Shown: piece by piece, positions 3,191 to 57,264 of the stretch
Layout of the letters: each line of letters begins with the position of its first letter
Numbering within the stretch: position 1 is the stretch's first letter
NCBI GenBank assembly: GCA_949290085.1
Contig: CASEQH010000002.1
Span: forward strand, 1 to 57,264
Direction: 5' to 3'
Length of the DNA stretch: 57,264 nt
From: an uncultured Bacillota bacterium
GTDB lineage: Bacteria > Bacillota_I > Bacilli_A > Erysipelotrichales > Erysipelotrichaceae
The notes under the pieces: model-generated
Told to the model about the DNA's origin: nothing
The model's input: only the letters and a program-made list of their open reading frames with translations
Database searches by the model: none
Made by a program: the position numbers and the translations under genes

Positions 3191-3775
3191 ATGAATAAAG
3201 TAGGAGAAATATTGAAATCTTATGCGGCGATAACACCAGAAATCGCTAAAGAATATGGAATATCAAAGTTCCAATTTTATAAATACCTAAGAGAAAATAA
3301 TTACGATAGAGTTTCACAAGGGATATATGTCAAAGAAGACGAGTGGTTAGATGAACTAGATATTATCCATAAAAGATGTCCAAAGGCTGTATTTTCTCAT
3401 GATGAGGCACTTTATTATCATAATCTTACAGATAGGACTCCTATAAAACATACACTAACCATTTATAGTGGCTATAACGCTCATAGAATCATAAAAGATT
3501 TTGATTGCAAAGTCTATACCATAAAGAAAGAGCTTTTAGAACTAGGCAAAATCATCGTGAAGGATAACTATGGCAACTATGTGCCCATGTATGATTTAGA
3601 AAGAACTATTTGTGATTTAGTTCGAAATCGTAATACCATGGATGTGCAGAGCTTTAATCAAGCACTAAAAACATATGTTATAAGAAAAGATAAAGATTTA
3701 AATTTACTTATGAAATATGCCAAGCTTTTTAGGGTGCAAAATATCATCAGGGGATACTTGGAGGTACTTTTATAA
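3191..3775 (+). CDS. abiEi: Type IV toxin-antitoxin system antitoxin, AbiEi
   Basis: Antitoxin and autorepressor partner of the AbiEii toxin. The 194-residue product starts with a winged-helix region (residues 1-50: ILKSYAAITPEIAKEYGIS, then GIYVKEDEW) followed by the AbiEi core (FSHDEALYYHNLTDRTP and YDLERTICDLVRNRN). It has a good ribosome binding site. Its TAA overlaps the toxin ATG by one base (TAATG), so the pair is translationally coupled. The operator and promoter upstream fit negative autoregulation. The system gives phage resistance by abortive infection in other bacteria; activity here is inferred. Confidence 0.88.
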   Translation: MNKVGEILKSYAAITPEIAKEYGISKFQFYKYLRENNYDRVSQGIYVKEDEWLDELDIIHKRCPKAVFSHDEALYYHNLTDRTPIKHTLTIYSGYNAHRIIKDFDCKVYTIKKELLELGKIIVKDNYGNYVPMYDLERTICDLVRNRNTMDVQSFNQALKTYVIRKDKDLNLLMKYAKLFRVQNIIRGYLEVLL

Positions 3776-55010: not shown

Positions 55011-55066
55011 ACTACCCTGAAAATAAATAATTTATTACGTATTCTATGTAATGAAGGAGATGAGTG

Positions 55067-55798
55067 ATGAACCAAGAAGCACAGTTGCTAATATCTGTAT
55101 ATAAGGCTAAGAAGAATATGGATGTTGCAGACGAGTTGATTAGAGATTATATGCCATTCATCAAATCTGAAACATCAAAGATATTGGGGCGATACTTAAA
55201 TGATAGTGATGATGAATTATCTATTGCTATGATAGCTTTTCATGAAGCTATCTTGGCTTATGATAGGAATAAGGGATCATTCTTACGCTATGTTTCTCTT
55301 GTGATGTCATCAAGGATTAAAGACTATCATCGCAAAGAATATCGTCATAGTACTGTTATTTCTTATGATGAGGCTATAGATGATGATGGGAATACTATCT
55401 TAGATACAATAGGAAAAGAAGATGAGCATAATATTACAAGAGAAGCTACAAGAGAAGAAATAGAAGAATTATCAAGGGTATTAAAAGAATATAATTTATC
55501 TTTTCTCGATATAGCTGATAATTGTCCTAAACAAGAAAGGACTTTAAATGCCTGTGCTAGTGTTATCAACTATTGTGATAATAAACCAGAGCTTTTAAAC
55601 AAGCTTATAGAGGCTAAAAGATTACCGATAAGTGAAATACTTAAGGGCGTAAAGGTTGATAGAAAAACTCTAGAGCGACATCGTAAATATTTGATGGCAA
55701 TGCTTATCATTAGGACTAATGGTTTTGAAATCATTCGTGGTCATCTCCATCGCTTTTTAAAGATAAGGGGGCAAGCATATGAAGTATATAGTAATTGA
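55067..55798 (+). CDS. sigI: RNA polymerase sigma-I factor
   Basis: An alternative sigma factor of 243 residues from ATG 55067 (AAGGAGA six bases upstream). Region 2 is seen as IRDYMPFIKSETSKIL, DELSIAMIAFHEAILAYDR and NKGSFLRYVSLVMSSRIKDY. The SigI-specific C-terminal part has VDRKTLERHRKYLMAMLII followed by EIIRGHLHRFLK. In other Firmicutes SigI responds to heat or extracellular polysaccharides. The anti-sigma gene overlaps its end by 20 bases. Confidence 0.93.
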   Translation: MNQEAQLLISVYKAKKNMDVADELIRDYMPFIKSETSKILGRYLNDSDDELSIAMIAFHEAILAYDRNKGSFLRYVSLVMSSRIKDYHRKEYRHSTVISYDEAIDDDGNTILDTIGKEDEHNITREATREEIEELSRVLKEYNLSFLDIADNCPKQERTLNACASVINYCDNKPELLNKLIEAKRLPISEILKGVKVDRKTLERHRKYLMAMLIIRTNGFEIIRGHLHRFLKIRGQAYEVYSN

Positions 55799-56519
55799 TG
55801 TTAAGAAAAGCTATGCGATTGTCTTAAAAGATGATGGGAAATTTATTAAATGTGCCAATATGCATTATGAAGTAGGACAAGAAGTTGATGAAATATATGA
55901 ATTAAAGGAAGAGAAAAAAGAAAGATATGTTTTTAGTTTCACTAAACCTTTTATTGCCCTTGCAAGTCTATGCTTAATCATGGTGCTTGGCATAAGGCTC
56001 ATGATGCCTTCTAGCCCATATGCAAAAGTTATACTATCTATTAATCCTGATGTATTAATTAGCTTAAATGAAAATAATATTGTCACCGATATTAAGGGAC
56101 AAAACGAAGATGGCGAAAAATTAATAACAGATTATGACTATGAGGGCAAGGATATAGAAGTAGTGAGTAATGAATTAGTTGATAGAGCCATTGAACAAGA
56201 CTATCTACATGAAGGAGATATTATTAATATCTATCTAGATAGTGAGGATGAAGATTGGTTATCTACATTCAATAGAGAAATCGGTACTTCTATTAAAACT
56301 CATCTAGATTCTAGAATATCTGTGACAATCATCATTAATTATGATGATAATATCGATTATTATTCGAGTATTGTTCAAAGTGAAATACCGATAAAAGAAA
56401 ATCAAGGAAGCAATAATGCTCCAAGTAATAATAATACTAACTATGAACCAGTTGATGATGGCATGAGTGATTATGAAAATAATAGCGATTATGAAGAAGA
56501 TAATTCTGATTATGAATAA
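55779..56519 (+). CDS. rsgI: Anti-sigma-I factor RsgI-like membrane protein
   Basis: A 246-residue membrane protein. The N-terminal cytoplasmic RsgI_N domain (1-50) opens MKYIVIDVKKSYAIVLKDDG, and one helix spans about 55-77. The extracellular domain starts YAKVILSINPDVLISLNENN; it contains the Asn89-Pro90 pair at the place where RsgI proteins self-cleave. The C-terminal tail is a low-complexity Asn/Asp/Tyr/Glu stretch with no recognisable carbohydrate-binding module. It should hold SigI inactive until its ectodomain is lost or pulled. Confidence 0.9.
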   Translation: MKYIVIDVKKSYAIVLKDDGKFIKCANMHYEVGQEVDEIYELKEEKKERYVFSFTKPFIALASLCLIMVLGIRLMMPSSPYAKVILSINPDVLISLNENNIVTDIKGQNEDGEKLITDYDYEGKDIEVVSNELVDRAIEQDYLHEGDIINIYLDSEDEDWLSTFNREIGTSIKTHLDSRISVTIIINYDDNIDYYSSIVQSEIPIKENQGSNNAPSNNNTNYEPVDDGMSDYENNSDYEEDNSDYE

Positions 56520-56585
56520 ATTACCCCGTTTTTAGAAAAAGTCTTACGTAATCTATTAGTGTAAATAAAAAGAAGGAGATTAAAC

Positions 56586-57264
56586 ATGAAACAATTGAAA
56601 AAATTATTTACGATTTCTTTAAGTATTCTATTAAGTCTAGCTATTTTATCAGGTTGTACTAACGAGACACAAACAGTGGAAACAAGCAGTACAAATGGAG
56701 TGATGGTATTAAAAGTTAATCCAGAGATTGAAATCAACTATGATGAAAATGGTAATGTGACATGGCTCAGTGCTAAGAATAAAGAAGCAGCCGATATCAT
56801 TGCAAACTATAGTGATTATGAAGGTAAAGCTTGTAAAGATGTAGTCAGTGAATTAGTTAAAAAGATAGGCGACGCAGGATATTTTGTAGAAGATGTTGAT
56901 GGCAATATGCGCCAGATAACTATTGAAGTTGAAAAAGGTTCATATATGCCTAGCGATACTTTCTTAGATGAAGTGATGGCAGAAGTAAAGACTAATGTAG
57001 AGACAAATAATTGGAAGGCACCTATCGATTTAGTTGGCGAAAGTGATTACGGTTATACAGACTATGTCGATACAGATTATGGCATTAATAATGATGGCTA
57101 TACTGATTATAATGATACTGATTATGGTCCTAACAATGACGGAGTGACTGACTATAATGACACAGACTATGGTCCTAATAACGATGGTGTGACAGATTAT
57201 AATGATACTGACTACGGACCAAACAACGATGGTGTAACTGACTATAACGATACCGATTATGGTC
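56586..57264 (+). CDS. Lipoprotein with an RsgI-like ectodomain and Asp/Asn/Tyr repeats, partial
   Basis: 226 codons are visible; the gene runs off the right edge. The signal peptide ends in LSGC with Cys24. Residues 38-150 align with the RsgI ectodomain encoded just upstream: VLKVNPEIEINYDENGNVT matches VILSINPDVLISLNENNIVT, and YSDYEGKACKDVVSELV matches YDYEGKDIEVVSNELV. The Asn-Pro pair is kept at 45-46. From residue 164 a 15-residue repeat (DYGPNNDGVTDYNDT type) begins, acidic enough to bind Ca2+. AAGGAG precedes the ATG. It is the third gene of the sigI operon. Confidence 0.85.
   Translation, partial: MKQLKKLFTISLSILLSLAILSGCTNETQTVETSSTNGVMVLKVNPEIEINYDENGNVTWLSAKNKEAADIIANYSDYEGKACKDVVSELVKKIGDAGYFVEDVDGNMRQITIEVEKGSYMPSDTFLDEVMAEVKTNVETNNWKAPIDLVGESDYGYTDYVDTDYGINNDGYTDYNDTDYGPNNDGVTDYNDTDYGPNNDGVTDYNDTDYGPNNDGVTDYNDTDYG
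57075..57264 (+). repeat. 45-bp in-frame tandem repeats
   Basis: Units at 57075-57119, 57120-57164, 57165-57209 and 57210-57254, plus ten bases of the next, up to the window edge. The first unit differs in protein (ile and tyr replace pro and val). Units 2, 3 and 4 encode the same 15 residues, but neighbouring units differ in 9 of 15 codons. Confidence 0.95.

Follow-up and report, generated by a model that had tools for sequence, protein, structure and literature searches.

The window analysed here is a stretch of 57,264 nucleotides from an uncultured Bacillota bacterium of the family Erysipelotrichaceae (assembly GCA_949290085.1, contig CASEQH010000002.1, forward strand), which ends with three genes on the plus strand: sigI (55067–55798), coding for a sigma-I factor of 243 residues and whose ATG is preceded by an in-frame GTG at 55064, rsgI (55779–56519), coding for the anti-sigma-I factor (246 residues), and a gene that we call lip (56586–57264), incomplete at the contig end, coding for a lipoprotein that has the ectodomain of RsgI followed by a repeat tail. 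SigI matches Sigma70_r2 above the Pfam cut-off, and the best NCBIfam SigI models cover nearly all of the protein (E-values down to 6.7e-55), with scores of 186 and 181 bits that are below their curated cut-offs of 306 and 185, respectively; the cognate rsgI overlaps sigI downstream, and an autoregulatory sigma-I-type promoter is present by sequence.

RsgI has all the parts that are typical of its family: a cytoplasmic RsgI_N domain (33.7 bits, Pfam cut-off 25), a single membrane helix, and an RsgI_M ectodomain (56019–56345; 66.1 bits, cut-off 25.3) with an Asn-Pro pair at 56043–56048. It ends with a short acidic tail (56370–56516), predicted to be disordered from the low confidence of the model (predicted local distance difference test, pLDDT), in which the [ST]xY motif occurs as NTNYE, MSDYE, NSDYE and NSDYE. 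No carbohydrate-binding module was detected in RsgI with Pfam, as the first-pass annotation of this DNA had stated. The lip product starts with a signal peptide and a lipobox (LSGC, residues 21–24, 56646–56657), whose Cys24 is at least 90% conserved in our alignment of the lipoproteins (A1). The RsgI_M domain follows (56697–57035; PF23750, 53.5 bits, E 4.7e-14), with Asn-Pro at 56718–56723, and then an array of 45-bp repeats (57069–57264; 15-residue consensus DYGPNNDGVTDYNDT), which is predicted to be disordered (pLDDT about 40). The Pfam search gave no RsgI_N match in lip, whose N-terminus is a lipoprotein signal, and because it lacks RsgI_N, the lip product is, judging from its domain content, not an anti-sigma factor: RsgI_M is the sole part that it has in common with RsgI. 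These two proteins carry the only two copies of RsgI_M in the genome (1.12 Mb, 93% complete). We also note that 75% of the lip ectodomains have a second cysteine in a GK-x-C motif (residue 83 in the lip of the window), which RsgI does not have.

The first-pass annotation had proposed that the two ectodomains are related and share an Asn-Pro pair (residues 89–90 of RsgI and 45–46 of lip) and a DYEGK block, and all of this holds. The direct alignment of the two proteins gives 29% identity (E 6e-12), to which the low-complexity tail contributes in part. The AlphaFold models of the two ectodomains have pLDDT above 90 and match the ectodomain of Bacillus subtilis RsgI (8t9n) with Z-scores of 14.3 (lip) and 17.1 (RsgI), and the periplasmic domains of RsgI proteins from Acetivibrio (Clostridium) thermocellum with Z-scores of 8–13, while the nearest unrelated entries are at about 5. 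Residues 1–47 of RsgI match the N-terminal domain of RsgI1 (6ivs, Z 6.1). In the predicted structure of lip, strands E38–43 and E47–52 flank N45-P46, so that both lip and RsgI are predicted to have the RsgI-type autoproteolytic domain, namely the fold of RsgI_M in which Asn-Pro separates strand 1 from strand 2, the place where RsgI proteins are reported to self-cleave (PMC12203970 for the pathway). Among the relatives described below, the pair is present in all of the 79 lipoproteins and all of the 72 RsgI that could be read; the alignment was anchored on Asn-Pro, so that proteins without the pair are set aside in this count, which was the case of one RsgI (a frame miscall). The solved chain 8hep_B of RsgI1 starts at the proline that aligns with Pro46 of lip and Pro90 of RsgI. 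By analogy, both lip and RsgI would cleave themselves at Asn-Pro. In the case of RsgI6 from C. thermocellum, autocleavage (PMC12203970) at Asn-Pro and separation of strand 1 are followed by cleavage by RseP, degradation by ClpXP and release of SigI. In B. subtilis, the trigger of the SigI–RsgI pathway is described as cell-wall defects, and a disordered region of RsgI is postulated to be the cell-wall sensor (PMC11081497, PMC10128001).

Scanning contigs with lip as the seed gave 80 relatives in Lachnospiraceae, Oscillospirales and Erysipelotrichales, many of them from chicken gut; this sampling leaves the linkage of lip to other genes unbiased and covers the loci that have lip, not those without it. 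The order that is conserved in these gut Bacillota is sigI-rsgI-lip-VTC-DUF4956-CotH. SigI is found upstream of lip in 68 of the 70 loci that have upstream room, so that the finding which would have spoken against the first-pass annotation, a lip mostly distant from sigI and rsgI in relatives, was not obtained. Downstream of lip, where there is room, CotH is present in 67/67 loci, VTC in 61/67 and DUF4956 in 61/67; VTC and DUF4956 are both missing from six loci that have kept CotH. In several Lachnospiraceae, lip and rsgI-sigI point in divergent directions, and three loci have CotH between rsgI and lip. In the flanks of these 12-kb loci, including beyond CotH, we found no recurrent gene family other than the six cassette genes. 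A plasmid location of the cassette was considered and rejected: a search of PLSDB with a lip relative from Traorella gave no homologous match, the sole hit being an unrelated one of low complexity. In one relative (L052, 1–1002), RsgI itself carries a TDYNDTDYGPNNDGV array and is directly followed by VTC-DUF4956-CotH, with no lip before VTC, which suggests that the cassette is fused or reduced there.

The window contig (C2) terminates within the 45-bp repeat array of lip. When the genome was searched for this array, one other site was found, on contig C22, which opens inside a near-identical lip: 136 of the 140 bases before the array are identical. From this overlap and from the conserved gene order, we infer that C2 and C22 are contiguous, in which case the probable end of lip is on the minus strand of C22 (L126), with a stop at 3724 and the gene ending in ...NDSGYDSSSDYGNSNYGSDYN. 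The overlap is not identical and the repeat units differ, which suggests strain variation in the number of repeats within the assembled genome. On C22, lip is followed on the same strand by genes for VTC (PF09359), DUF4956 (PF16316) and a CotH kinase (PF08757, 187 bits for a cut-off of 23.8). CotH, which has relatives among the kinases of the secretory pathway, is an atypical kinase that polyphosphorylates the repeat tails of CotB and CotG (PMC7821199). The CotH of C22 retains the two aspartates needed for activity: those of NLD and PWD align with 5jd9, the correspondence with D228 and D251 of the B. subtilis enzyme (PMC7821199) being assigned by spacing.

The upstream region of lip suggests that it is controlled by SigI. 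Putative sigma-I-type promoters are present on the plus strand before sigI-rsgI (55014–55041, ACCCTGAAAATAAATAATTTATTACGTA) and before lip (56523–56550, ACCCCGTTTTTAGAAAAAGTCTTACGTA), and in the whole genome of the window ACCCY-N18-ACGTA occurs twice, exactly before sigI and before lip; four looser matches were rejected, since they are inside genes or have no gene after them. Among the relatives, ACCC[CT]-N19-CGTA occurs 114 times in the 66 kb upstream of sigI and lip, against nine times in the 1.59 Mb of other locus sequence (an approximately 300-fold difference), and seven of these nine belong to the cassette promoters as well, which miscalled starts, a greater distance to the gene or a transposase gene have displaced. 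The spacing from ACCCC to CGTA is 19 (95 cases) or 20 (12 cases), with no case at any other value from 12 to 27. Of 77 relatives, 62 have the motif before lip, for 4.6 expected, and 39 of 69 have it before sigI, for 2.2 expected from shuffled sequences, while before rsgI it is at background (1/69, for 4.0 expected). A strict form, ACCCCGNTTT-N14-CGTA, was matched 12 times in 16 complete genomes of relatives, nine of which have at least one match, against one match for the reversed control; eleven are directly before sigI or lip, and the twelfth is before lip with a transposase gene between. Such an insertion is seen in Traorella massiliensis (L006, 4256–5992), where a transposase gene that looks IS110-like by eye lies between two sigma-I-type promoters and lip, and probably cuts lip off from its promoter. 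The cassette motif fits the published sigma-I elements, that is, a −10 element CGWA (PMC10575876), and ACCCCC--AA-N15-CGAA in Bacillales or CCCYYAAA/CGWA for sigma-I3 (PMC4711584). If these promoters are active, SigI would control sigI-rsgI as one unit and lip-VTC-DUF4956-CotH as another, with possibly few further targets.

These results bear on the role of lip, which the first-pass annotation had considered as a co-cistron of sigI and rsgI and as the possible sensing arm of the system. The functional link to SigI is supported, but lip seems to be more than a plain co-cistron or a sensing arm: since a sigma-I-type promoter of its own precedes it and it is the first gene of the lip-VTC-DUF4956-CotH set, it would be first of all, and mainly, an output of SigI. 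The sensing arm would be a co-receptor, whose long tail binds the signal and whose ectodomain, by contact with that of RsgI, passes it on, so that SigI output is raised and not damped. The two ectodomains are homologous and encoded together, the tail of RsgI in the window is short and that of lip longer, and in L052, where no lip is seen between RsgI and VTC, RsgI bears the array itself; a disordered region as cell-wall sensor is also what is postulated for B. subtilis RsgI (PMC10128001). However, under a SigI-dependent promoter, lip would be scarce before induction, which is awkward for a primary sensor, and we consider the co-receptor unlikely. The other roles suggested for lip, as a decoy or in feedback, are possible.

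The pairing of a lipid-anchored and a transmembrane RsgI_M protein does not depend on having used lip as a seed. In an independent sample of 392 genomes of the same phylum searched with PF23750, 64 have RsgI_M, and the 20 fetched regions that have two neighbouring copies all consist of one lipoprotein and one transmembrane protein. Nine of them are SigI cassettes and the other eleven (L101–L111) are of the ECF type: their transmembrane RsgI_M partner has no RsgI_N, and their sigma factor has Sigma70_r2 and Sigma70_r4_2 in the five that were tested, a profile built from such proteins matching all eleven. It could be argued that rsgI and lip are merely chance neighbours that share an old domain, for which we found nothing beyond their adjacency in the window; the synteny counts (68/70 loci) refute this, the conservation of the promoters and of the gene order speaks against it, as does the recurrence of the pair in the phylum-wide sample, and we give this idea practically no credit.

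In a tree of RsgI_M, the lipoproteins of the SigI cassettes form one clade (100/100), while those of the ECF type require at least four label changes, and the lipoproteins of L108, L109 and L111 each cluster with the transmembrane protein of the same locus. The tree gives no support to one common origin for all the lipid-anchored copies; they appear to have arisen more than once, but with so few columns and such long branches the number of origins is approximate. The ECF operons L101–L111 (for example L106, 241–3091, and L108, 2491–5749), which combine an anti-sigma factor and a lipid-anchored RsgI_M, with PepSY domains in some, look like a separate recurrent family. In two of them, the ECF-type sigma/anti-sigma/lipoprotein set is followed by VTC-DUF4956-CotH (L106, 3135–5911; L107, 5240–8001).

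The tails are a second feature that lip and RsgI share, through the [ST]xY motif. In the relatives both are acidic (net charge of about −0.25 per residue) and predicted to be disordered, and a Ser or Thr is found at position −2 of the tyrosine in 90% (lip) and 89% (RsgI, motif statistics over 73 proteins) of the cases. Nearly all lip (78 of 79) and 18 of 73 RsgI contain the 15-residue unit DYGPNNDGVTDYNDT. Adjacent copies of the repeat differ by 407 synonymous and 201 non-synonymous codon changes, counted at the six positions that the search pattern does not fix (67% synonymous, against 19% expected); judged by these codons, the unit is under purifying selection, and a neutral expansion of the array was rejected on the same figures. 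A calcium-binding repeat of the TSP3 or dockerin type was also rejected: lip has no such Pfam match and its tail is modelled as disordered. In the independent sample, [ST]xY tails occur in 11 of the 11 RsgI_M loci that have VTC/DUF4956/CotH genes (nine SigI and two ECF; in one of these, L094, VTC alone is in view before the contig end), and in none of the 49 RsgI_M loci where these genes were not detected. Separately, in VTC-DUF4956 pairs without RsgI_M (L174, L175, L183, L190, L193, L196), the next gene often codes for a secreted protein or lipoprotein of about 450–620 residues, which is a Cthe_2159 carbohydrate-binding protein in L175, L183 and L196; VTC-DUF4956 seems to be generally paired with a surface protein.

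Taking these results together with what is known of RsgI and CotH, we think that lip is most likely an effector made under the control of SigI and a substrate of CotH, held in place by the break-away domain with which RsgI reports load. It may be that it is an effector only, that is, a SigI-induced surface protein (a polymer anchor or a wall spacer, for instance) for which RsgI_M is a borrowed break-away tether, with no effect on RsgI signalling. That lip has its own promoter and heads the VTC, DUF4956 and CotH unit is in line with this simpler role, as is the fact that VTC-DUF4956 pairs elsewhere accompany surface proteins of the exopolysaccharide type (PMC7112168) or Cthe_2159 carbohydrate-binding proteins, and two lip-CotH pairs have no sigI in the upstream sequence, which covers about 0.6 kb in L032 and 5.9 kb in L036. 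On the contrary, a role unrelated to signalling does not predict that lipid-anchored RsgI_M proteins of polyphyletic origin lie beside a transmembrane anti-sigma gene in ECF operons too, nor that the tail motif is common to RsgI and lip, sometimes as the identical 15-residue unit; we find a pure effector somewhat improbable.

We propose instead that the six genes form a self-contained SigI cassette for surface homeostasis, in which the effector has the break-away domain and the tail of the sensor, and we put the chances of this proposal at about even. The parts that the sequences support are the gene order, the shared fold, the conservation of Asn-Pro, the promoters, and the tail motif with its linkage to CotH among RsgI_M loci. 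The cassette would consist of two transcription units, sigI-rsgI and lip-VTC-DUF4956-CotH, each under its own sigma-I-type promoter. RsgI would keep SigI at the membrane until its ectodomain, nicked at Asn-Pro, is pulled apart, and intramembrane proteolysis would then free SigI, as for RsgI6 of C. thermocellum. The freed SigI would transcribe both units, and the strict promoter motif points to few other targets. The main product would be lip, in which a lipid anchor is followed by a break-away ectodomain like that of RsgI and then by a long repeat tail, acidic and rich in tyrosine. The [ST]xY tails of lip, and those of RsgI in the cases where it has them, are probably modified by the extracytoplasmic kinase of the CotH type, and VTC-DUF4956 would support this modification. 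Since RsgI shares the ectodomain of lip, and in many cases its tail motif as well, each new lip molecule would compete with RsgI for the same load or modification, so that the response would shut itself off by negative feedback. It is tentative, and to our mind rather doubtful, to go further and propose a closed-loop homeostat whose regulon is essentially itself, in which the sensor and a mass-produced effector have a self-nicking break-away domain and a kinase-modifiable tail motif in common, and the competition between them measures the amount of modified surface lipoprotein in place; the doubling of the sensor domain would then have evolved repeatedly, both beside SigI and beside ECF sigma factors.

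Several observations weigh against the proposed cassette. The promoter motif as written is missing upstream of 15 of 77 lip and 30 of 69 sigI, and about two matches to ACCCY-N18-ACGTA are expected by chance in the genome of the window, as estimated from base composition; it is therefore their positions, not their number, that carry weight. There are CotH-VTC-DUF4956 sets without RsgI_M or [ST]xY tails (L195, L206, L208; the divergent CotH of such tail-less sets were missed by the CotH model seeded with the cassette and found with Pfam), so CotH can act on other substrates, and we rejected the strong form of the hypothesis, according to which the tail is always the substrate of CotH. The CotH substrates that have been characterised are rich in Ser, Lys and Arg, and are not acidic. 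In the ECF loci L106 and L107, the lipoprotein alone has the [ST]xY tail (rich in SNYDD), which the anti-sigma factor lacks. Last, no CotH was detected with the lipid-anchored RsgI_M copies of L101–L105 and L108–L111, which makes the link to the anti-sigma factor independent of the kinase.

SigI–RsgI systems are known for sensing carbohydrates or the cell wall and for having external targets, whereas here, across many gut Bacillota, the system appears to be tied to one cassette, whose products include a predicted surface kinase and a lipoprotein that doubles the ectodomain of the sensor. This makes the cassette a small testable system for the reporting of load by a self-cleaving ectodomain; for CotH-VTC-DUF4956, a machinery still uncharacterised, it offers a candidate regulator and a candidate substrate. 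The copying of a sensor domain into a lipoprotein beside an anti-sigma gene would be a recurrent evolutionary pattern, undescribed in the literature that we searched.

The cassette has in common with the SigI–RsgI systems of A. thermocellum and B. subtilis the sigma family, RsgI_N, a single membrane helix and RsgI_M with Asn-Pro, and also a sigI promoter that is autoregulated and has CGWA as its −10 element (PMC10575876, PMC4711584, PMC12203970). What it adds to them is lip, a further RsgI_M protein, anchored by a lipid and preceded by a sigma-I-type promoter of its own; it also differs by its acidic [ST]xY tails, by the absence of a detected carbohydrate-binding module, and by its predicted targets, which are the genes of the cassette, those for VTC, DUF4956 and CotH among them. 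No description of a lipoprotein partner with RsgI_M was found in the literature searched, so that the cassette can be described as a SigI–RsgI system with an addition that is absent from this literature. The remark of the first-pass annotation that it knew of no described system with this layout holds in part: SigI, an anti-sigma domain protein, VTC and CotH are listed in NELoc-2 of Clostridium perfringens (PMC2879425, PMC11677781), the nearest published locus, which we compared by its published gene lists alone. These lists have no second RsgI_M protein; NELoc-2 also differs by the HEAT-repeat and glycosyltransferase genes that come next and by an inserted resolvase.

Regarding the enzymes, the nearest set is that of the Gram-positive Pel clusters, which have the same adjacent trio CotH/polyphosphate polymerase/DUF4956 (PMC7112168). 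In these clusters the trio is tied to genes for exopolysaccharide synthesis; in the 12-kb loci, the flanks of the cassette have no recurrent family beyond its six genes, no search with pel models having been made. The CotB-CotH-CotG module is similar in that the gene of a CotH-family kinase adjoins those of proteins with long tandem-repeat tails that contain Ser/Thr (PMC7821199). Unlike in that module, the neighbours of CotH in the cassette do not point to a spore-coat setting, its partners are anchored by a membrane helix or a lipid and are preceded by a SigI-type promoter, and their tails are acidic and rich in Tyr rather than in Ser, Lys and Arg.

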